A stretch of DNA of 64,000 nt. Source: Agreia sp. VKM Ac-1783 (lineage in GTDB: Bacteria > Actinomycetota > Actinomycetes > Actinomycetales > Microbacteriaceae). The DNA is taken from assembly GCF_900177765.1 (NCBI RefSeq), contig NZ_FXWI01000005.1:124001-188000 (forward strand). Reading direction: 5' to 3'. The stretch's first letter is position 1, and each line of letters starts with the position of its first letter. The position numbers and the translations under genes were made by a program. Below are positions 9,352 through 24,603 of this stretch, in pieces. Below the pieces are notes generated by a model, which saw nothing but the letters and a program-made list of their open reading frames with translations, ran no database searches and was not told where the DNA came from.

Positions 9352-10413
9352 ATGGTGCAACAGTCAAGCTCCACTCTGCCGAAGAACTTTGAAGACCTTC
9401 TGGCTGAGGGCGACGAGGCAGCTGTGCTCGCCGTGTTCGACACCTGTGAGGTCGATGCGCGGGGCGGGTATTGGAAGAGCACAGCTCTTGGTTTTGCCAA
9501 CTGCCCTACAACCGTCGCCCGCTGGCTTGTCGATCATGGTGCCGATGTCGAAGCGGTCGACTCGGGCGGTATGACCCCTTTGCATCGACACGCAGGAGCA
9601 TGGAACGGACAGCCAGGGCTGCTGCTCGACCTCGGCGCGAACATTGAGTCGGTGACCAAGCATGGTGAGACGGCCCTGCACATAGCGGCGGGTAGGCACC
9701 GTGCGCAGAACGTGCGATTACTTGTCGAGCGCGGCGCGAATGTGTCGGCCGAAGCTCAACGTGGCCTCACGCCTGCTGCAATTGCTGTGAAGCTCTGTGA
9801 AAATGCCAGCATCGCAGAGACCGCCGAGATTCTTGAGATTCTCGTTGCGGCCGGTGCTGTGCTCAGCGAAGATCTGCGTGCTGACGCAGCGCGGATCGGC
9901 AAGCAATTCGAGTTCCATCGTGACAATTTCAACCGGGACAAGTTGGCTGAAGCTGACGCGGGTCTGCAGAAGATCTACGAGTTGCTGAAGGCCTCGCCGG
10001 TTCAGCGAAGGCGCATGCATGACGGATCTTCTGACATCGTGGTGACAGGGTCGACCTGGCAGCAACAGCACCGGGAGCTGTGGGACTTGCTCGTTCCCTC
10101 GCAGGGACCGGCGGCGACGGTACAAGGCGAAGTGATTCGCATCACAGGACGAATCTCAGACGAGCTCGATCGAAACGGCGGCGGCAACTGGGATCGCGAT
10201 TTCCAGCGGATGGCGGACGCTCTGCCCGAGTACCTGAGCTCATCGACACCGCTCCCCGCCGCCGATCTCAAGGCAGCGAGAAACGCAACGAGGCTTCTCA
10301 AGGGGAGGAAGCGGCTCGCCGTCGATCATGCGATGCTGTCGGAGTACGCGGTGAGGTGGGTGCGCGAGAACCCGCAACCGATCCCGTTGATCACGCCGAA
10401 GTACCGGCGATAG
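9352..10413 (+). CDS. Ankyrin-repeat protein
   Basis: A 353-residue, apparently cytoplasmic protein. Residues about 15-165 form four to five ankyrin repeats (for example GGMTPLHRHAG, HGETALHIAAG and RGLTPAAIAV, each followed by LL..GA). The rest, about residues 190-353, is a charged helical region with no recognised domain. No secretion signal is seen. Bacterial ankyrin proteins often act as binding modules in toxin/immunity or stress systems; here that is only a possibility. The codon usage is slightly more A+T-rich than in the flanking genes. Confidence 0.82.
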   Translation: MVQQSSSTLPKNFEDLLAEGDEAAVLAVFDTCEVDARGGYWKSTALGFANCPTTVARWLVDHGADVEAVDSGGMTPLHRHAGAWNGQPGLLLDLGANIESVTKHGETALHIAAGRHRAQNVRLLVERGANVSAEAQRGLTPAAIAVKLCENASIAETAEILEILVAAGAVLSEDLRADAARIGKQFEFHRDNFNRDKLAEADAGLQKIYELLKASPVQRRRMHDGSSDIVVTGSTWQQQHRELWDLLVPSQGPAATVQGEVIRITGRISDELDRNGGGNWDRDFQRMADALPEYLSSSTPLPAADLKAARNATRLLKGRKRLAVDHAMLSEYAVRWVRENPQPIPLITPKYRR

Positions 10414-13669: not shown

Positions 13670-13891
13670 GCCTGACGGTGTGACGAAGCTTCAAGGCGGT
13701 TCGGTGGATGCGGCGCGCAGGCAGTTGGGTCGGGTCCTGGTAGCCGGGAACAACCGAAGAGCTGCTGCGCATCGCCCGCTGCTTGAATGACGTGGTCGGA
13801 CACCGTCTTGCGATGTTCAGCGTAAAACTCAGCGTTGCCGACATCAGCGTGCCGTCAGAGGCGATGTAATCTCGGCAGGCACTAACTAACG

Positions 13892-14110
13892 CTAGGTGGA
13901 AATTCTCCTGAATGTGTAACCGGCCTTCTTGATGTTGGCGTCGAAGAACCGCCCGTGACTCGTGGCGGACATGAGACCCTCGTAGATGAGGGGTGGCACG
14001 CCGGAGTACCGGTAAACCCCGCCCTGGTTGAAGGCAATCTCAAGTGTGCGCGTGCCGGGGTCGTACCCGACTTCGGAGAGGTTGCTGCTGATGACTGGAA
14101 CGCGGTTCAT
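13892..14110 (-). CDS. KTSC domain protein
   Basis: A 72-residue single KTSC domain, named for its likeness to the C-terminal part of some lysyl-tRNA synthetases. Landmarks are [20 protein letters not shown] (residues 8-27), [10 protein letters not shown] and [10 protein letters not shown]. It probably binds nucleic acid, though this is not proven. It overlaps the DUF2130 gene by 4 bases, so it is the last gene of a cassette OLD nuclease > DUF2130 > KTSC. Confidence 0.85.
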
Positions 14111-15522
14111 TCGTGATCTCCTTCGATCTCGCCTGAGGCCTCGAGTTCGGCGAACTTCGATGCCATTGTGGGGTTGCCTCGGGTAAGCCTTCTCAGGGTC
14201 ACATCCTGCGCTTTATCGTTGGCAAGTCGCAGGTTGCGCTCGGAGCCGAGCAGCGCTTCTTTCGCTTTTTGCAGCCTGTCGATCGACTTGTCGATCTCGT
14301 CGATGGCGGTATGAAAGCGGCGCGACGCCAGGTCATAGTTCTTGCCGAACGACGTCTTGAAGGTCTCGAGCTCGCTCTCGAAATTCGTTATGTCAACGTG
14401 CTGCGCCTTCACTAATGCGAGCTCGGTCTTGTACTTAAGGGAATTCGTGGCGGCGTCTCGGAGCAATGTGATCATCTGGATGAAGAACTGAGGCCGGATG
14501 ACGTAGGTCTTTGGATAGCGGTAGGAGACATCGACAATCCCGGTGTTGTAAAGGTCGTTGTCCGGCTCGAGCAGCGAGACGAGAATTGCGTACTCGCATC
14601 CTTTCTCGTTGCGGTCCTTATCGAGCTCCTTAAGAAAGTCCTCATTCTTTTTCTTTATGGCGGTGGTGTCGTTCTCGTTCTTCATCTCGAACATGATCGA
14701 AACGATTTCGGTGTTCGCCTCGTCCGAGTCGCGGAAGATGTAGTCGCCCTTGCTGCCAGTGCGAGCGTCGTTGTCCTTTTCGAAGTAGGCGCGAGGGAAT
14801 GCGGTCGAACGGATTCGATTGAACTCGATCTCGCAGTGCTGCTCCAGGGTCTCGCCGACCATTTTGGTCGAGAGTTTTGCTTTCATGTCCCGCAGTCGTT
14901 CGATCGCATCGTCGCGATCCTTTAGTTGCGTCTCGTACTTATCTTTCAAAGAAGTCTCTGCGAGTTGTTTTTCTAGCTGAACCTTCTCCAGCCCGTTCCT
15001 TAGTTCGTCACGCTCCTTCTCGACGACGCCGAGCGCTTCGGTAATCTCCAGCTTTTTGGCCAATTCAACGGATTCGAGTGTGGCCTTGAGCTGTTGGATC
15101 TCCGAGTCCTTTGCGGCCTCAGACTTCTGCGACTCAGAGGAGAGCTTTGCTTCCGCCAGCTCGACCGCTGACTGCTTATCGTGTTTGGCAGTCGCAAGGC
15201 TGTTGAGTGCGGCATCGCGCTCTTTTTCAATCGTGCTGAGTGCTTCCGCTATGGCCATCTTTTGTTGCAGCGCACCGGCATCTAGCTTTGCCTTGAGCTC
15301 GTTGATCTCGGCGTCCTTCATAGCTGTCGACTGCTGCTGTTCGCCGACCGTCTTTGCCTGGGCCAGCTCCAAAGCGTTTTGCTTGTCTTGTTCCGCGAGT
15401 TCGAGGCGTTCATGGAGTTGCTTTTCAAATGCTTCGTCACGAACTTGCTTAACGATGTCGGCGTAGCCCGCTTCGTCAATCGTGAACGTTCTCCCGCAAT
15501 GCGGACATTTGATTTCGTTCAT
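14107..15522 (-). CDS. DUF2130 protein: coiled coil plus PD-(D/E)XK-like core
   Basis: A 471-residue protein. The N-terminus has a lone CxxC (KCPHCGRTF, residues 5-13). Residues about 25-225 are a long Gln/Glu/Lys/Ala-rich coiled coil. The DUF2130 domain follows ([15 protein letters not shown]). Within it GSKGDYIF near residue 257 and IMFEMKNEN near residue 279 give the GD ... ExK pattern of PD-(D/E)XK nucleases. A second helical region ends the protein. It lies 29 bases after the OLD-like gene and overlaps the KTSC gene. A nuclease role is inferred from the motif; the family itself is uncharacterised. Confidence 0.85.
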
Positions 15523-15551
15523 TGTCTTGTTCCCCTATCGTCGCCGTGCGG

Positions 15552-17588
15552 TCAGATCGTCGTCTCAGTTCCTGCCGGCATAGGTTCGCCAGTGAGGGCG
15601 GCGATCTGTATAACTACCGCTCGGAAGATGCTCGGCAGATCGGCATCATCTGCCGAGAACACGGCATTCCGGTAGGCGAGAAGATTCTTGTTACTTCGTG
15701 AGGCGAGCGTGATCCCCACCGCGCTGAGGGCCGCGTCGAAGGTCTGCCAGGCTCCGAGTTCCTCTTCAATATCGTCGGTCCACATAGTGAAGTCGCCGCA
15801 TACGACGCTCGGGCTACCGAACGTGTAGGGGAGGGCTCCGACGGTGGCGGTGGAGATCGATGGCAACGCCGCAACCAGTCTTTCGGTTTCTGCCTTGTGG
15901 CTCCCGTGAGCGGTCGCCCGTTTAACTTGAATCTCGTCGTCGGTGAGGCCTTGATAAGTCTTGCGGGCCGCTGTTCCGTAATCACCGTCTGCAAGCACGT
16001 AGGTTGGTATGCCGAGCGCAACCAGGATCGCGCGTGCAACCCGCAAACCGCCTTTACCCTCGACGGACAGGACAGTTACTCCGAGCCGGTCTAGATCATT
16101 GCCAAGTTTCGTTGCCACTGCTTCGAGCACGATCCGGTCAGTCTGTCCCTCGACGAGGACGACAGCGTCGGCAAAAAAACCTTCGGAGAACTCCGTGGGG
16201 ACGTAAGAAACGATGGCCTTTTCGATGCTGTCCTGATTCAAGCCTGATGCGACCGCGACCGACGTGACGGAAGCCGTCGCCACGGAGGTCTCACCGTTTG
16301 CGTAGGTGAATCGGTGAAGGGCCTCGAACTGTTCAGGTTGAATGAAGTAAGGGCTGTGCGTCGCGAGGAGCACTTGAACGTTCGGCTGGCCACTTAATTC
16401 AAGCAAGGTCCTAGCGAATGATCGTGCGCGCACCGGATGCTGATATATCTCAGGCTCCTCGATCGCCACGATGATGCTCGGTAGAGCGCTGAGCGATTCC
16501 TCTAGACGAGTCTGTGTCGCGGCTTCATCCTCTCCTTCGTACGCTTCGTGAGTCTTTCGGGTGAGATCTTCGTCTGGAACCATGACCTGAAACATGGAGA
16601 TCATGACGGCTCGTTGTACTCCATGTCCTTGCCGGGAGACGTCGTTAGTGACTCCCGCGATGGTCACCGCGGTTGCGATCGACGGGTCAAGTTTGGGGAC
16701 GAACTCCGGCACGGTCGGTGTGAGCGTCACACTGGCGTTCGGTATCAGTGAAGCGAGGCGAGCGTTGATACGGCCAGCCTGGACACCGGTGGCGCCTTCG
16801 ATGCTGGTTCGGATCTCACCCGCGAGTTCGTTCACGGCATCAGCATGCTTCTCCAGCCACGCGGCCTGAGCGCGCGCACTGGCCGCTGCCATGAACGCAC
16901 CAACAAGTTCTGTCAGCGCGGTGCCCCGCGATGATGTCCCCACCTCACCTGCGATGCTGGTGGCCGCGGGAATGAGCACAAAGCGCACGCAATCTCGAAT
17001 TACGTTGGCCCCGTTCCACCCCATCATCTGGGTCGCGTCAGAATCTGCAATCTCGATGAGCAACGTCGTATGAGTGGCGTCCGATTCCCAGTCGATGAGT
17101 GCGTCAAAGATTGTGTCCTTGCTCGCAGTTCCGGCAAGCTCCGGGAGATCAGTGACGCTTTTTCTGAGCTCACGGTACATTCTGCGCCGGTCCGCAATGG
17201 GCTGGTCGGCGCGCAACTCAGCAAAGCCGGGGCCTTGCTTCGCGTTGCCGACGGTCTTGGTTTGTTTGGTGTCTGCGTACCAAGTACGACGAATTTCTGC
17301 CCTGTCGCCCCGGCCATACTGCTGCAATCGGTCGCGGTCCTTATCAGTGAGAGCGGTGAACGTGACAGTCACCTCGACGGTCGCACCAGGTTCGAGAATG
17401 CCGCCTTCTTTGCACCCATGGACATCGATTTCGGAGAGCGGCGTTGCGTTAAAGAACCAGTCCAGCGCATAAAGCACGGACGACTTTCCTGAACCATTTG
17501 CGCCTATGAATGCCCCATAGTCGTCGACTCGGAGCGTGATGTCTTTCAGGCTCCGGTAGTTGCGAATGGTGACCGTTTCGATGCGCAC
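15552..17588 (-). CDS. OLD-family ATPase with TOPRIM nuclease domain
   Basis: A 678-residue ABC-type ATPase joined to a TOPRIM domain, the architecture of OLD (overcoming lysogenization defect) nucleases. Walker A is GANGSGKSS (residues 29-37), a signature-like SRQGHGVQR lies near 318, Walker B is IIVAIEEPEIYQHP (about 373) and the H-loop ATHSPYF (about 408). The TOPRIM glutamate is in LVEGQTDR (about 477), with ADGDYG near 530. Class 1 OLDs act alone and class 2 (Gabija GajA) pair with a UvrD-like helicase; no helicase is present here, and DUF2130 and KTSC genes follow instead. The first gene of the cassette. Confidence 0.9.
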   Translation of the reverse strand: MRIETVTIRNYRSLKDITLRVDDYGAFIGANGSGKSSVLYALDWFFNATPLSEIDVHGCKEGGILEPGATVEVTVTFTALTDKDRDRLQQYGRGDRAEIRRTWYADTKQTKTVGNAKQGPGFAELRADQPIADRRRMYRELRKSVTDLPELAGTASKDTIFDALIDWESDATHTTLLIEIADSDATQMMGWNGANVIRDCVRFVLIPAATSIAGEVGTSSRGTALTELVGAFMAAASARAQAAWLEKHADAVNELAGEIRTSIEGATGVQAGRINARLASLIPNASVTLTPTVPEFVPKLDPSIATAVTIAGVTNDVSRQGHGVQRAVMISMFQVMVPDEDLTRKTHEAYEGEDEAATQTRLEESLSALPSIIVAIEEPEIYQHPVRARSFARTLLELSGQPNVQVLLATHSPYFIQPEQFEALHRFTYANGETSVATASVTSVAVASGLNQDSIEKAIVSYVPTEFSEGFFADAVVLVEGQTDRIVLEAVATKLGNDLDRLGVTVLSVEGKGGLRVARAILVALGIPTYVLADGDYGTAARKTYQGLTDDEIQVKRATAHGSHKAETERLVAALPSISTATVGALPYTFGSPSVVCGDFTMWTDDIEEELGAWQTFDAALSAVGITLASRSNKNLLAYRNAVFSADDADLPSIFRAVVIQIAALTGEPMPAGTETTI

Positions 17589-17839
17589 TTATTCCCAATC
17601 CTTCTGTCAGACCAACATGAATATCGCGTCAAGGAGCGTGTCGCGTGTCTGGACTAATCGGGGCGTTGTCTTCTATGTCCACCCCAGTGGAGAAATCCCA
17701 CAGGTCGACTCCCCCAAGCCCATACCCCAGTGTGTCCAATCACCGGGTCAATAGATAGAGGAATCGAGAATTGCTCGAAAGGCGTCGCCGTCGCGGCCGG
17801 CCTCGGGCTCGGCCCGCTCGAACGCACGCAACGTCGTGA

Positions 17840-18082
17840 GCGTATCGGCACGGGGAGGGAGCAGCGGCCGCTGATGTTCGCTCGGACGGCGGGAGGATTC
17901 ACGTGAGTGTGGAGAATCGGATCAGTCACACGCTGCGCGGTTCGGTCGCAGGCAGTGGCCTCGGGCTAGTCGGCATGAGGGAGCGCGTGGAGTCGTGCGG
18001 CGGGACGCTCTCGGTGTCTTCGGTCGATGATGTCTTTCGCGTGAGCGCCGTGCTCAGCCCGGTGGGAGCGCAGCTCGCATGA
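17840..18082 (+). pseudogene. C-terminal stump of a NarL-type sensor kinase
   Basis: The frame from 17840 to the TGA at 18080-18082 encodes only the end of a HATPase_c domain: AYRHGEG, then GGRIHVSVEN, then GSGLGLVGMRERVESCGG and a short tail. An in-frame TGA lies just upstream at 17837, and the dimerisation/H-box region and membrane part are missing. The stop overlaps the ATG of the response regulator (ATGA), which is the normal kinase-regulator junction. The front of the kinase has therefore been deleted or replaced, next to the OLD cassette. Confidence 0.8.
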
Positions 18083-18738
18083 CGAACATTCTGATCGTCG
18101 ACGACCAAGACGACATGCGGGCGGGGATCCGGTCGATGCTGCTGCTTGACCCCACGTTCGTTGTTGTGGGGGATCTGTCTGATGGGCTGCAGGTGCCCGC
18201 GTTTCTGCGGGACAAGGCGGTGGACCTGGTGCTGATGGACATTCGGATGCCCGGGATCGACGGGGTCGAGGCGACGCGGCGGATCCGGAAGGAACATCCG
18301 GCTTCAAATCTGCGCGTGATCGTTCTGACGACGTTCGACCAGGATGAGATCGTGCCTGCGGCGCTGCGCGCGGGGGCGAACGGGTTCCTGAGCAAGAAGG
18401 TAAGTCCTGCTGAGCTCGTGGCAGGCATCGCGGAGGTGGTTGCCGGTGGCGGGGCCCTGTCCGGGGCGGCTACTGCTGCACTGATCGGGCACATGACAGA
18501 CAGCCCGCCGCCTGCGATCGACAAGGAGTTGCTTGAGCGCTTCTCCGCTATGACGCCCCGCGAGCGCGATGTTGTCGTGGCCGTCGCGAGCGGACTCGAC
18601 AACCACGAGATCGCCGCGCAGATGTCGGTGTCGCCGTTCACGGTGAAGACCCACGCGGTGCGGGCGATGACGAAGGTCGGAGCGAGGGACAGGGCGCAGC
18701 TGGTGACGTTCACGTTCCGGGCGGTATTGTATCCGTGA
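18079..18738 (+). CDS. NarL/FixJ-type response regulator
   Basis: A 219-residue regulator. Receiver domain: acidic pair DDQDD (residues 8-12), phospho-acceptor Asp in LVLMDIRMPG (about 54), conserved Thr/Lys in VLTTFD and LSKKV. A LuxR-type HTH occupies about residues 150-215 (MTPRERDVVVAVASG, then VSPFTVKTH). It is intact, but its own kinase is reduced to a stump, so it must be unphosphorylated, cross-phosphorylated, or no longer functional. Confidence 0.92.
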   Translation: MTNILIVDDQDDMRAGIRSMLLLDPTFVVVGDLSDGLQVPAFLRDKAVDLVLMDIRMPGIDGVEATRRIRKEHPASNLRVIVLTTFDQDEIVPAALRAGANGFLSKKVSPAELVAGIAEVVAGGGALSGAATAALIGHMTDSPPPAIDKELLERFSAMTPRERDVVVAVASGLDNHEIAAQMSVSPFTVKTHAVRAMTKVGARDRAQLVTFTFRAVLYP

Positions 18739-19362: not shown

Positions 19363-19404
19363 ATGTTGCGGAAGGTTCAGCTCTTCTTTGACTACAGTCT
19401 TGTC

Positions 19405-20217
19405 ATGGGCGAACTCGAAATTCCCGATCTGGCTGATCTCGGGTTGCCCGGTGCGTTGGCTGGCGCCGGGGCCCTAGGTATCTATTGGACGCTCGGACCC
19501 TCGATCAAGGCTGTAGGAAACTCGTTCGGTCAGTGGACCGAGTACCGCATGAACAACCTGCTTCGAATCGGAGAAAAGGTCAGCGCACGTCGCGAATTGC
19601 AGTCAGATCTCGATGACGGATCCCCACGAGCCGTTCACCCGCGCCTGGCCGCGGCACTCATTGAGAATTCATCGTGGGTAGATGACGATTTACATCAGGA
19701 GTACTTTGCGGGACTCATTGTTGGTGAGAAAAATGAGTCTGATGATGGTCTTTTCTACTCCCGCGTCGTATCGGAATTGACGGCTTCGCAAGTTAGGCTG
19801 CATTTTCTGATTTATCGCGCTTACGAAGGATCCTTCGCGACGATTCAAGCCCCACGCTTCAATGGAGGAGATGCTGCACTCAGGCAGCTCACGGTGCGCG
19901 CCTCAAAGTCGTCGTTTACGGGCGCGTTGCAACTTCGTTCTTTCGACTCTCCGTCTTGGGCAGCCGCAGTTCACGGTCTCGTAAGAGCTGGACTGGTCAC
20001 CGAAATAGCCCCAATATCCGCGGGCAGTGACACGATCGTGGCAGTCCCTAGCTTGCTTGGCGCGATTATTTATCACCGAGCGCTTAGCTACACAACGGAG
20101 GGCATAGACGCCATTCGATCTGACCGCGCGCAGCTCGAACGAATCGATGGACATTCATACGCGCCGTTTCCAGATGGCGTGGCGGGTCTGGCAGACGTCG
20201 TGATTGGCGCTGTCTGA
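19405..20217 (+). CDS. DUF4393/Abi-alpha-like protein
   Basis: A 270-residue protein (284 from the alternative ATG at 19363). One glycine-rich hydrophobic segment lies near the N-terminus (LPGALAGAGALGIYW). The middle (HPRLAAALIENSSWVDDDLH, then QEYFAGLIVG) resembles DUF4393, the 'Abi-alpha' group linked to abortive infection. The C-terminal half has a winged-helix-like pattern (AAAVHGLVRAGLVTEI). It is more A+T-rich than the surrounding core genes and lies upstream of the nuclease-NACHT gene on the same strand. The assignment is tentative. Confidence 0.6.
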   Translation: MGELEIPDLADLGLPGALAGAGALGIYWTLGPSIKAVGNSFGQWTEYRMNNLLRIGEKVSARRELQSDLDDGSPRAVHPRLAAALIENSSWVDDDLHQEYFAGLIVGEKNESDDGLFYSRVVSELTASQVRLHFLIYRAYEGSFATIQAPRFNGGDAALRQLTVRASKSSFTGALQLRSFDSPSWAAAVHGLVRAGLVTEIAPISAGSDTIVAVPSLLGAIIYHRALSYTTEGIDAIRSDRAQLERIDGHSYAPFPDGVAGLADVVIGAV

Positions 20218-20676: not shown

Positions 20677-23600
20677 ATGGACTACGACTTCTCGACCCTG
20701 GGACCGACGAATTTTGAGCATTTGGCTCAAGCGCTGGTCGCCAAGACTGTAGGCGCTTCAATCACTGTTTTCGGGGTCGGTCCCGACGGTGGGCGGGAAG
20801 CCTCCTGGCTTGGTAACCAACTCTTCGAAAAAGATCCCGAGGGCGGTTTCGGGGTGCTGCAGGCCAAGTACAAGACCATCTCGTCCACCCCGTCGGAAAA
20901 TTTGGATTGGCTTAAGGAGCAAATCGGCGATGAGCTTCGAGATTGGGTAAAGCCTGACTCCAAACGAGAGCAGAAGCCAGACTCACTTCTTTTCGCGACA
21001 AACGTTCGACTAACCCCAGGTGACGGAGGCGGCAAAGAGCAGGCCCGTGACTTCGCGGAAGGCCTTGCAAAAAAGATTGGGTTGGACTCTACTCGGCTTC
21101 ACATCTGGAGTTACGACGAGATCCGTTCCTTACTTGATGGTGCCGACGATATCCGTCGCCGTTACGCGGCGTTTGTCACGCCGGGCGATATTCTCTCGCG
21201 AATTCTCGATGACCTGAACGCTCAAGATAAGGCCCTGACCGAAGCGCTGGCCTTATACACGGCTCGGACTTTGGTGGACGATGACCTCCTCAACCTGACC
21301 CAGGCCGGAACTGTAAATGACCAACGGGTGAGTGTTTCTGATGTCTTTGTAGACCTTCCTGTCGTGAGCGCTGAACGTGCCCAAGACGCAAGAACACTTC
21401 AACGCCTGCACAGAGAGTCCGAGGACGAACTTGGTGTTGCCTCGCGGATGATTCGTGCATTCAGTGGGATTGGAACAGGTACCGATGCAGAAGTTAAGAA
21501 CGAAAGGATTGGCAATAATCGAGCAGTTCTGGTGGGTGGTCCCGGACAAGGGAAAAGTACTATCACGCAATGGCTGGCGCAGGTCTATCGCTCAGAGTTT
21601 CTGCGCGAATCGCGCATAGCTGAGTCAGAAGAAGTAGACGACGTAATAAAACGTCTTGAGAATCGAATGAGTGAGGTTGGGATTGAATCGCCAAGGTCCC
21701 GACCCTGGCCGTTTCGGCTCATCCTCTCAAATTTCGCGGATTACCTTACCCAGCATCCTCAATCGAGCCTGCTGAGCTACATGTCTCACGAGATATCCGA
21801 TAGGTCCCCGGTAGAAGTGGATGCAGCTGCGCTTCGAGGATGGCTGTCTTCATACCCCTGGCTTCTGCTCATCGATGGACTCGACGAGGTACCCAGTTCG
21901 AGCAATCGAGATCAGGTCATGGAGAGTATTGCGGCATTTTTTCGGGATGTAAAACTCCTTGATGCAGACGTTCTCGCTCTGGCCACGACGAGACCGCAAG
22001 GGTACAACGACGAATTTTCACCAAAGGTCTATAAGCATTTTCACTTACTGCCGCTCAATGCGAATCAGGCGCTTGCTTACGCCCAAGGCCTCGTTGTTGT
22101 CCGAACAGGCAAGGGGACAATTCAGTCCGCCAAGACCATTGAGAGATTGACGCGAGCCAGGGGAGAGGAATCAACCGCAAACCTTTTCGAGTCGCCACTC
22201 CAGGTCACGATTCTCACCGTTCTACTGGAAAAGATTGGAAGTGCTCCTCGTGACCGATGGCGACTTTTCTCTCAGTACTACAAGGTGATCTCCGACAGGG
22301 AGCAGGAGAAACAAGGAGAACTGTCAGAACTCCTTCAGAAGTACGAATCGGAGGTAGCTCACATCCACCGAATAGTCGGCATGGAGCTTCAAAATCGCAG
22401 CTCGCAAGCGGGAGGGGCTTCCTCTTTTCTCACGGTGGAAGAATTTGACGGCATCATTAAGGAGCGTTTTAGGGCAATTGGCTATACGGAGGAGGGGCTT
22501 GAGCAAATACGTGACAACTTCAAAAGACTGGTCACTGACCGCCTGGTCTTCCTGACAATATTGAACGCGTCGCGGGTGGGATTCGAGCTGAGAAGCTTTC
22601 AGGAATTTATGGCGGCGGAGCACATCGTGCACCAGCGTGAATCGGAGATTATCGCCGAAATCCGATCAAGGGCTTTGACTCCGTTCTGGAGGAACGTCGT
22701 ACTATTTGCCATTGGTTCAGTGTTCGCCAATAGGGACTTCCTTAGGTCGGATATTCCTCTTATGTGCGCCGACATCGATTCGTCGGGAGGACCAGAGGAC
22801 ATCACTCGTCCAGGTGCGTATCTGGCCTTGGATATTCTTAAGGAGGGTATTGTCCAGGCGCAGCCGCTCTACGGACGGGCCCTCGCCGTAACAATGATGA
22901 AGCTAATGGACGGACCGCTTAACCGTGATCTCACGACGCTGAGGGCTCTTTCCGACACTGAGGCTCTTGAAGTTATCCGAAACATAGCGTCTGAGACTTC
23001 AACGGCTGGTTTGTCGACGTGGCTGAACCGAGCCCTAAGTCTCGACGCGATCGATGCCGAACCCGCACTCCAAAAACTTTTTGCTCACGCAGGTGCAGAA
23101 CTTCGAAAATTGCTAGTAAGTCTTGCGCAATCCGTCCCAACGCTTGCGGCCCGCGACTTCGTTCGTGATGAGGCTTTCAAACAGAGCCCATTCCCTACTT
23201 TGTCAATGACCGAGATCTTTTCCCGAAGGGGAGATGAGTGGGATGAAGGTAGCCAGGACGTCCGGTGGGACGTACAAAAAAGCGTGGTTACCTACCCGCG
23301 TTTTAGAAGTTTTAACGTGCGCTTCAAAAGAGACGAGAACGAGAATCTACTCATTCGAGCAAACTCCGTGCTTCCTGATGAAAGTTCAGCCAGAGTATGG
23401 CAAAGCTTGGCATCAAGCCAGGGGGAAGGCGAGGACTGGGAGGCAATTAAGGCATCCGGCCGATTTGCTCACGATCCTGGGCCTGAGCAGCTCGCCCAGG
23501 CCCTCGAAGCCTTCGCCAGTTCGACCTGGGAACTTTCGCACTCCTACTACGGTCTTCCGTGGGTCTTGGTCACTTGCCTACAGAACGCAGGACTGTATGC

Positions 23601-24603
23601 GGCTACCTTCGGACGCGAGCGCCTGAGAAATCGACTACTTCGACTGGCTGATCTGGCTAGGCACGGGTCTTTGGGGACCTTCGACGACTGGGAAGCGGCC
23701 GAGAGGAGGTGGGCAAGCTCTCTAGCGGTAACGGATTTATCGACGCCGCCGGAAGTCGACTCGGGCGATGAAAATGAGTGGGATATGCCTGTCTGGCCTG
23801 CACTTTCCTCCGTGGGCTTCGTCTCTACCATCGGAATGATACTTTCTCGGTCGCGGCTTCCGGGCGACGATGATTCTGCCGATTCGACTTTCCTGAGCGC
23901 CTTAATGAGACAGGATCAATTCCTGTCTCCCGGTGGCCACCGAACTAATCTGCGAACTGCTGCGTTGATGGCCGCCTCAACCATCGCCGACGATATCGAC
24001 AGGAAGGGTACGACTCCACCTTCATTTGTCTTCCAGCTCGAGGAGGCTCGATGGTTGGCCTCTGCACTTGCCACACCGGGGGTTACTCAATACGCATCTT
24101 GGCTCTTAAATGTTCCTGGCGATCTGAGCGAAGAACCAGGGCGGTCCATAATTAAGCTGCTGGGAGAATCAAACTTCGAGCCCGGTCGTCGCAATGATGC
24201 GCTGGGGCTTCGACTTATAAGCGGCCCTTCCGACGATCTTTGGGCGTCGTACCGGCTGGCTGTTCTCTGGTCGCCGCTTCTGGCACGTGATCTGCCAGAA
24301 AAGTTGTCACGCCTCGGCCCCGCCGTGTCGAGTGACCAGAGGAAACTCGAAAGAATTGCCGAACTTCTCACGGCCAGTAAGGCGGAAATAGCAGCCGGTC
24401 GCTTTGACGACGCGCTGGTTTGGATGAGTGATGAAACGGACTCGCTCAATAGCGACTGGTTCGAGGCGACAATGGCGACGATGGACCATGAATTCGCAAT
24501 GGTCGCCACCACAAGATTTGCCAAGGTGACTCAAGATTCTCATCCGTTCGTGGCCGATCAAATGATGAGCTCGGCGCAAGAACTCGAAGAGGAGAACGAC
24601 TAG
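20677..24603 (+). CDS. Mrr-like nuclease fused to NACHT ATPase
   Basis: A 1308-residue STAND-type NTPase. Residues about 8-150 form an Mrr-like PD-(D/E)XK domain: FEHLAQAL, GPDGGREA (Asp near 37) and LQAKYK (Gln 62, Lys 64). The NACHT core has Walker A GGPGQGKST (287-295), Walker B LLLIDGLDEVP (396-406) and ATTRPQGY (436-443), followed by LFESPLQVTILTVLLE and a YYKVISDREQEK segment. The remaining 700 or so residues are helical and would be the sensor. This is the layout of bacterial NACHT/Avs-like anti-phage proteins in which ligand binding assembles the nuclease. Base composition is visibly more A+T-rich than in flanking core genes. Target and trigger are unknown. Confidence 0.88.
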   Translation: MDYDFSTLGPTNFEHLAQALVAKTVGASITVFGVGPDGGREASWLGNQLFEKDPEGGFGVLQAKYKTISSTPSENLDWLKEQIGDELRDWVKPDSKREQKPDSLLFATNVRLTPGDGGGKEQARDFAEGLAKKIGLDSTRLHIWSYDEIRSLLDGADDIRRRYAAFVTPGDILSRILDDLNAQDKALTEALALYTARTLVDDDLLNLTQAGTVNDQRVSVSDVFVDLPVVSAERAQDARTLQRLHRESEDELGVASRMIRAFSGIGTGTDAEVKNERIGNNRAVLVGGPGQGKSTITQWLAQVYRSEFLRESRIAESEEVDDVIKRLENRMSEVGIESPRSRPWPFRLILSNFADYLTQHPQSSLLSYMSHEISDRSPVEVDAAALRGWLSSYPWLLLIDGLDEVPSSSNRDQVMESIAAFFRDVKLLDADVLALATTRPQGYNDEFSPKVYKHFHLLPLNANQALAYAQGLVVVRTGKGTIQSAKTIERLTRARGEESTANLFESPLQVTILTVLLEKIGSAPRDRWRLFSQYYKVISDREQEKQGELSELLQKYESEVAHIHRIVGMELQNRSSQAGGASSFLTVEEFDGIIKERFRAIGYTEEGLEQIRDNFKRLVTDRLVFLTILNASRVGFELRSFQEFMAAEHIVHQRESEIIAEIRSRALTPFWRNVVLFAIGSVFANRDFLRSDIPLMCADIDSSGGPEDITRPGAYLALDILKEGIVQAQPLYGRALAVTMMKLMDGPLNRDLTTLRALSDTEALEVIRNIASETSTAGLSTWLNRALSLDAIDAEPALQKLFAHAGAELRKLLVSLAQSVPTLAARDFVRDEAFKQSPFPTLSMTEIFSRRGDEWDEGSQDVRWDVQKSVVTYPRFRSFNVRFKRDENENLLIRANSVLPDESSARVWQSLASSQGEGEDWEAIKASGRFAHDPGPEQLAQALEAFASSTWELSHSYYGLPWVLVTCLQNAGLYAATFGRERLRNRLLRLADLARHGSLGTFDDWEAAERRWASSLAVTDLSTPPEVDSGDENEWDMPVWPALSSVGFVSTIGMILSRSRLPGDDDSADSTFLSALMRQDQFLSPGGHRTNLRTAALMAASTIADDIDRKGTTPPSFVFQLEEARWLASALATPGVTQYASWLLNVPGDLSEEPGRSIIKLLGESNFEPGRRNDALGLRLISGPSDDLWASYRLAVLWSPLLARDLPEKLSRLGPAVSSDQRKLERIAELLTASKAEIAAGRFDDALVWMSDETDSLNSDWFEATMATMDHEFAMVATTRFAKVTQDSHPFVADQMMSSAQELEEEND

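Follow-up and report, generated by a model that had tools for sequence, protein, structure and literature searches.

The stretch analysed here, called the window below, comprises the 64,000 nucleotides of Agreia sp. VKM Ac-1783 from position 124,001 to 188,000 of contig NZ_FXWI01000005.1. It raises the question why a gene for an OLD-family nuclease shares an operon with genes for a DUF2130 protein and a small KTSC-domain protein, and whether the three form one system. The answer that we favour, at about an even chance, is that they make up a mobile and modular operon that is most likely directed against phages or plasmids, with OLD as sensor and nickase, DUF2130 as a second nuclease and KTSC as an adaptor.

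The three genes lie on the minus strand in the order OLD, DUF2130, KTSC, with 29 nucleotides (nt) between the first two and an overlap of 4 nt between the last two. An earlier sequence-only reading had described this layout, the three family identities and the lack of a helicase, and all of it is borne out by the exact coordinates, by strong Pfam matches and by the list of open reading frames. The OLD protein carries an ABC-type ATPase domain followed by a TOPRIM domain within one chain, the domain plan of the OLD family (Pfam AAA_15, 8e-36, and OLD-like_TOPRIM, 2.4e-20, both above the cut-off). Its PADLOC match is the Old model (1.3e-55), with GajA also matched but weaker, and among solved structures the class 1 enzyme TsOLD of T. 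scotoductus (6p74) is the best relative (7.2e-20), GajA again being weaker (1.6e-7). The DUF2130 protein matches PF09903 (9.6e-88) over residues 191-448, behind a long coiled coil; searched by sequence against the PDB it gave weak matches only, mostly to coiled coils. The KTSC protein belongs to its family by a PF13619 match of 1.7e-24 (85.8 bits against a gathering cut-off of 25), and its solved relatives are 7x8c, 4rgi and the last 67 residues of a HerA protein (8wiv). As judged from the sequences, these are strong family matches, beyond chance. Neither a helicase gene nor any further gene-sized frame was seen in the open reading frames of the insert that carries the trio, where Pfam was run on the three genes, and references for SIR2, DUF4297, HerA and UvrD gave no match in the 18 kb around it. 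No sigma-70-like promoter for the trio was found.

The models of DUF2130 point to a second nuclease. In the whole-protein model, built with AlphaFold2 on a 75-sequence alignment (mean pLDDT 78.5), an N-terminus with a CPHC motif is followed by a helix of about 185 residues and by a core in the order helix 226-241, strands 246-250, 260-266 and 272-281, helix 290-307 and strand 311-316; the core modelled alone scores better (pLDDT 81.4, pTM 0.76). Structural comparison of this core with VIA-align placed at the top Tk-TIP26 (Z 9.2, root-mean-square deviation (rmsd) 3.3 over 98 residues) and Can2 (Z 8.9, 3.6 over 122), then VC1899 (Z 8.6, 3.2 over 119), McrC (Z 8.4, 3.9 over 116) and Cdn1 (Z 8.2, 3.7 over 125), with BstEII, BsaWI, EndoMS, Hjc and NucC at lower ranks, all of which we take to be PD-(D/E)XK proteins. 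The matches of this kind cover Z 7.4-9.2 and rmsd 3.1-4.6 over 98-138 residues, at a sequence identity of 7-18%, and the whole protein gave a similar result (Z up to 8.8). Unrelated proteins start at Z 6.3 (chimallin) and 5.7 (acetyl-CoA carboxylase), and Foldseek by itself was weak (best E 0.016 and 0.021, both AspBHI). Since Z scores of 8-9 stand only modestly above those of other folds and Foldseek is weak, the active-site residues carry weight. E224, D260, E279 and K281, which include the 'GD...ExK' pattern noticed earlier, are identical in 120 of 120 DUF2130 proteins, spanning two divergent subfamilies with very long separating branches. The models and the conserved residues together present a helix-three strands-helix-strand core with E...D...ExK, so that the PD-(D/E)XK fold, on which the sequence-only reading had staked its interpretation, is well supported as a prediction and nuclease activity of DUF2130 is likely. 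In predicted fold and in these residues the protein resembles the cores of VC1899, Can2, Cdn1, McrC and BstEII, but it adds the CPHC motif and the long coiled coil.

The surroundings of the trio suggest how it reached this genome. The three genes, with little else, occupy an insert that splits a histidine-kinase gene (Table 1). In two sibling genomes of this genus a histidine kinase of 450 amino acids (aa) stands intact beside the response regulator (L239 5765-7117; L240 2066-3418); in a third (L236) the right-hand part is present and the kinase frame is also short (191 aa). In searches of the three sibling genomes (G002, G004 and G007) neither DUF2130 nor KTSC turned up. The right-hand remnants map in two pieces, 17780-17842 to L239 6594-6656 and the sequence from 17840 to L239 6875 onwards, in agreement with L240. 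On the sibling map the left and right remnants overlap by 25 nt, so that a target duplication is possible, the copies being too degenerate to tell; the insert ends show no terminal inverted repeat and no clear direct repeat. The G+C content of the insert is 56.6%, against 64.7-69.2% in the neighbouring regulator, MarR and hydrolase genes, and the third-position G+C is 0.66 for OLD, 0.70 for DUF2130 and 0.81 for KTSC, against 0.82-0.86 for the neighbours. The KTSC value is nearer to the neighbours than those of the other two genes, so that KTSC may have had a history of its own. Because one insert with just these genes splits a kinase that is intact in two siblings, the trio probably entered as a unit; the alternative is assembly on the spot, and a single entry is the simpler explanation.

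Proteins of this kind could also serve the host in DNA repair or recombination instead of defence. RmuC combines a coiled coil with a PD-(D/E)XK core, the plan also seen in DUF2130; the structural neighbours of DUF2130 include Hjc, Mus81 and EndoMS besides restriction enzymes, and OLD bears a weak likeness to RecF and Rad50 models. Yet such a host function appears improbable in view of the patchy occurrence of DUF2130, which is present in five of 99 relatives (the window genome included) and in 32 of 300 genomes of another order, that of Trinickia soli, four of these being seeds of the search. DUF2130 relatives are also found in 61 plasmid records, of which 49 belong to conjugative or mobilizable plasmids, and the trio itself is an insert.

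The pairing of OLD with DUF2130 recurs elsewhere. It was counted in 120 distinct DUF2130 loci, kept from 122 examined after removal of a duplicate (L170, identical to L043) and a broken locus (L198); a set of 80 loci taken as the best of 584 leans to close relatives. OLD was scored by its own profile (150-900 aa, at most 150 nt from DUF2130, same strand), and SIR2, HerA and similar labels were partly assigned by eye. OLD adjoins DUF2130 in this way at 16 of the 120 loci, the window included, a count that takes in a 365-aa ATPase accepted without a TOPRIM check (L190) and an OLD cut to 267 aa (L024). The other partners are HerA-type genes within 1.5 kb on either strand (eight loci), Gabija-like UvrD (two) and restriction genes (one). 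A less biased sample comes from the order of Trinickia soli, where four seed places and a weak match in G749 were left out; its 27 distinct loci comprise five with OLD, one Gabija-like, three with HerA, one with restriction-modification genes and 17 with none of these. Given this variety, DUF2130 is promiscuous in its choice of partners, OLD being the commonest of those scored. Defence genes found as neighbours of DUF2130 are those of type III and type I restriction, SIR2-HerA, DUF4297-HerA and Gabija-like systems. On the Lactococcus plasmid pNP40 (L092 6001-9871), a TrlF-family AAA-like ATPase comes 46 nt after DUF2130.

The position of OLD within these loci is informative as well. Matches to the OLD model across the 120 loci fall 16 times at the immediate same-strand position and seven times elsewhere, for which a crude slot model gives p ~2e-11. 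The gap between OLD and DUF2130 is 2 nt in eight loci and in a Citrobacter plasmid, whose island runs WYL, helicase, DUF4391, OLD, DUF2130, DNA methyltransferase and DEAD/DEAH helicase, the last two being read as a type III restriction pair. Of the four best plasmid OLD records, two have DUF2130 directly after OLD (H61 and H62), one has a DUF2130 remnant (H64/H58) and one has none (H63). In the OLD tree, a lineage of about 626 aa has DUF2130 or a remnant in nine of ten rows, a ratio that is inflated because seven of the ten were found via DUF2130. The window OLD lies on a branch whose two other members have no DUF2130, and its pairing thus looks independent of that lineage.

The strongest rival explanation makes the three genes mere fellow travellers: a stand-alone OLD of class 1 type, a DUF2130 nuclease and KTSC would move together only as common genes of defence islands. 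None of the scored partners is present at 93 of the 120 DUF2130 loci, so that DUF2130 may act alone, although some loci counted here (L174, L177) do have defence-like genes of other kinds. OLD relatives without DUF2130 exist, and among the relatives searched KTSC has neither partner nor SIR2-HerA at seven of its nine other places. Partner exchange is also very frequent, the OLD label changing 12 times on the DUF2130 tree (six changes forced by supported branches) and the HerA label eight times for eight rows; shuffling of the OLD label gave a mean of 15.3 changes, and as few as 12 in three of 500 shuffles, so that the true label is clustered only a little more than by chance. The same 12 changes can also be read in favour of the operon, as repeated pairing of OLD with DUF2130. 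Chance company explains less well why gaps of 2 nt recur across genomes and why the window genes overlap by 4 nt, why OLD matches concentrate at the immediate position, and why DUF2130 or its remnant follows three of the four best plasmid OLDs. We regard co-travel as rather unlikely, though it deserves more weight than the other rivals considered here.

Several of these observations, namely the many loci without a scored partner and the weak clustering of the OLD label, weigh against the operon as a functional unit, and so do the searches for the trio itself. These took DUF2130 through 99 relatives, OLD through 396 genomes of the order (E<=1e-40) and KTSC through the 99 relatives and through samples of 394 genomes from the same class and 369 from a different one (both samples at E<=1e-12), and a second trio was found with none of the three queries. 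Among the 120 DUF2130 loci the window alone has KTSC within 150 nt on the same strand, and a KTSC match is absent genome-wide in six of 13 genomes with DUF2130 loci, five with OLD directly beside DUF2130. The two closest OLD relatives found, with 52% (G277) and 40% identity, have neither DUF2130 nor KTSC. DUF2130 and KTSC have no match among PADLOC models, and DUF2130 relatives were not found in phage records, while viral contigs gave only two loci. The remaining hits are of the same mixed kind. Of the other four DUF2130 genes among the relatives, two have no OLD or KTSC nearby (L007, L008), one is a fragment (L009) and one follows OLD and is cut short beside a transposase (L010 in G087). OLD passed the threshold in four of the 396 genomes, the window included; in G370 it stands without DUF2130 or KTSC, and in G382 OLD and DUF2130 are 74 nt apart without KTSC. 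KTSC occurs in nine of the 99 relatives at ten places, the window included, and two of the other nine are SIR2-HerA-KTSC operons; seven other KTSC places in the two class samples, scanned over 1.5 kb, include one beside OLD, one beside HerA and five with neither. Of the two-nuclease complex that had been proposed from sequence, the operon and the two nuclease-type proteins stand, with support from the single insert, but the trio as a conserved neighbourhood does not; what recurs is the looser pattern of OLD with DUF2130 and of KTSC with SIR2-HerA, besides one further genome with KTSC before an OLD. As a separate observation, the nearest OLD relative (52%) precedes genes that by eye resemble a nucleotidyltransferase and a membrane effector of a cyclic oligonucleotide-based antiphage signalling system (CBASS; L109 6611-11441).

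The role of KTSC has to be read from its other settings. PMC9503650 describes KTSC genes, as DNA-binding, coupled with HerA-like ATPases. Twelve plasmid regions with KTSC were opened, hand-picked and partly chosen for a listed ATP-binding gene, and six of them (Sulfitobacter, Rhizobium, E. coli, Pseudoalteromonas, Mesorhizobium and Bradyrhizobium) hold a SIR2-HerA operon that ends with KTSC. KTSC overlaps the HerA genes or sits at most 26 nt away, and in the solved HerA 8wiv, a structure not named in the literature searched, it is fused to the C-terminus. On a Haloarcula plasmid (L209 2180-5213) E2/UBC, ThiF and KTSC genes are consecutive, with KTSC overlapping ThiF by 4 nt. Neither arrangement is seen in the Deinococcus, Halalkalicoccus, Agrobacterium (where KTSC abuts a short ATP-binding gene), Klebsiella and Nostoc regions. 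Of the eight SIR2-HerA loci near DUF2130, five have KTSC (L022, L068, L184, L186 and L212) and three do not (L063, L070 and L181). A single operon in L186 (4492-9147, plus strand) reads DUF2130-SIR2-HerA-KTSC, with DUF2130 overlapping SIR2 by 4 nt, and in an Osedax symbiont (L068 6150-12665, plus strand) OLD, DUF2130, SIR2, HerA and KTSC stand in a row, as if two systems were joined. In both loci the two accessory parts of the window, DUF2130 and KTSC, are arranged around another engine. The DUF2130 of L186 belongs to a divergent subfamily of about 430 aa with a CPNC motif.

KTSC is also met beside OLD. In G1013, a genome of the class, a 621-aa OLD is preceded on its own strand, at a distance of 89 nt, by a KTSC frame (L247 4898-7374, minus strand), with no DUF2130 within the 14 kb opened; a gene that by eye resembles a tyrosine recombinase lies near this pair. 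An unnamed 75-aa family flanks OLD-DUF2130 in four loci (L011 5564-5800, L029 9523-9801, L033 2060-2290 and L175 6037-6375) and OLD without DUF2130 in one (L103 7586-7813). Comparison of this family with the KTSC profile gave a probability of 80% (E 1.4e-5), Pfam KTSC is sub-threshold in three of the five proteins, and a plasmid copy (L246) reaches 4e-8 with our own KTSC profile; the family is probably a distant KTSC. It is present at four of 16 OLD-linked and at none of 104 other DUF2130 loci (Fisher p 2e-4). Five further plasmid copies (Thermus, Rhizobium, Arcobacter, Legionella and Tritonibacter) have no OLD by annotation and own profile, SbcD lying beside the Rhizobium copy and SbcC near the Arcobacter copy. 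In view of these OLD-free copies, KTSC and its distant relatives look like small components that serve several kinds of DNA-handling operon and not OLD alone. One could also imagine KTSC as a brake on the two nucleases, which would be released when invading DNA removes or displaces it. It is the last, small and closely coupled gene of the SIR2-HerA, E2-ThiF and window operons, as might be expected of a control protein; the fusion to HerA in 8wiv, however, suggests a structural part, and most OLD-DUF2130 pairs have no adjacent KTSC. A brake would therefore come as a surprise.

Comparison with described systems places the window OLD, by gene context, outside OLD classes 1, 2 and 4 and probably outside class 3, with a domain plan like that of classes 1 and 2. 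Like the class 1 proteins (P2 Old, and TsOLD, its best solved match) it has the ABC ATPase and TOPRIM in one chain and no helicase. According to PMC10568477, class 1 OLDs are single genes that are not near other candidate defence genes, whereas the window OLD shares its operon with KTSC and a second predicted nuclease. With Gabija (GajA-GajB, class 2, marked by an adjacent UvrD/PcrA/Rep-like helicase) it shares the possession of a gene partner; in the window, however, that partner is the predicted PD-(D/E)XK protein and not a UvrD-like GajB. Elsewhere DUF2130 is an additional gene next to two Gabija-like pairs (L073, L196). In class 3, the retron type, a reverse transcriptase gene and a non-coding RNA adjoin OLD; no reverse transcriptase gene and no further gene-sized frame were seen in the insert, and no search for non-coding RNA was made. 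Class 4, or PARIS, has the ATPase and TOPRIM in separate genes, although fused forms exist (PMC10568477); in the window both are in one 678-aa chain. The SIR2-HerA operons resemble the trio in ending with KTSC, and DUF2130 directly adjoins SIR2-HerA and DUF4297-HerA genes elsewhere, but SIR2, DUF4297 and HerA had no match in the 18 kb around the window trio, in which OLD takes the place of the ATPase. The literature searched, including the part of PMC11291478 available, gave no account of an OLD-DUF2130 pair, a weak absence as few subscription papers were covered. OLD-based nuclease systems are already known; this set of partners is not described in that literature.

In view of the above, a working scheme for the favoured three-gene operon can be considered, in which a defence role is plausible from gene context. 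OLD would be the ATP-gated sensor and nicking nuclease, and DUF2130 a second, PD-(D/E)XK nuclease on a coiled-coil arm that is recruited to OLD. KTSC could be a small DNA-binding adaptor, either docking the nuclease on the ATPase or recognising an odd DNA structure. In such a complex OLD, together with KTSC, would first bind to ends or junctions of unusual form in foreign DNA that is being replicated. Binding or depletion of ATP could then open the TOPRIM site of OLD and lead to a nick, after which DUF2130 would cut the opposite strand or degrade the DNA from the nick.

Other parts of the window may also belong to defence (Table 1). A second low-G+C stretch (54-56%) to the right of the response regulator encodes a protein with sub-threshold likeness to Abi_alpha (0.0046) and a 1308-aa NACHT-like protein (7.9e-5, below the cut-off), which at its N-terminus has a match to REase-type argonaute-associated models (PADLOC 3.1e-8); this stretch looks like another defence island. 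To the left of the trio island lies a gene for an ankyrin-repeat protein.

Table 1. Positions of the trio, of its insertion site and of other features in the window.
Feature	Position	Strand	Remarks
OLD-family ATPase-TOPRIM	15552-17588	-	678 aa, GTG start
DUF2130 protein	14107-15522	-	471 aa; N-terminal CPHC motif, ~185-residue coiled coil, predicted PD-(D/E)XK core, C-terminal helices
Predicted PD-(D/E)XK core of DUF2130	14443-14856	-	about residues 223-360, including E224, D260, E279 and K281; VIA-align and residue conservation
KTSC-domain protein	13892-14110	-	72 aa; 4-nt overlap of its start codon with the DUF2130 stop
Insert carrying the trio	13884-17779 (approximate)		~3.9 kb, 56.6% G+C; sibling comparison and composition
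Left remnant of histidine-kinase gene	13753-13883	+	corresponds to L239 6488-6618 and L240 2695-2565
Right remnants of histidine-kinase gene	17780-18078	+	inner stretch missing at ~17840
Response regulator, partner of the broken kinase, native flank	18079-18738	+	Pfam Response_reg and GerE; conserved in sibling genomes
Second low-G+C stretch	19363-20217 and 20677-24603	+	right of response regulator
Ankyrin-repeat protein	9352-10413	+	Pfam Ank_2 1e-11; PADLOC PDC-M72A 2.7e-13

The wider meaning lies in the recurrence of the OLD-DUF2130 pair among distantly related bacteria. It suggests a defence system of the mix-and-match kind, little studied so far and directed against viruses or plasmids. 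More tentatively, and with somewhat less than even confidence, the pair may be a further, undescribed OLD defence class, with DUF2130 and KTSC as a plug-in nuclease arm and a DNA adaptor that were borrowed repeatedly by unrelated ATPases (OLD, HerA, Gabija and restriction helicases). If true, the recurrent pair would add an OLD system whose second nuclease is defined, and DUF2130, a family scarcely named in the literature searched, would gain its first role. The pair also points to a sharing of nuclease and adaptor parts among immune systems that are otherwise unrelated.

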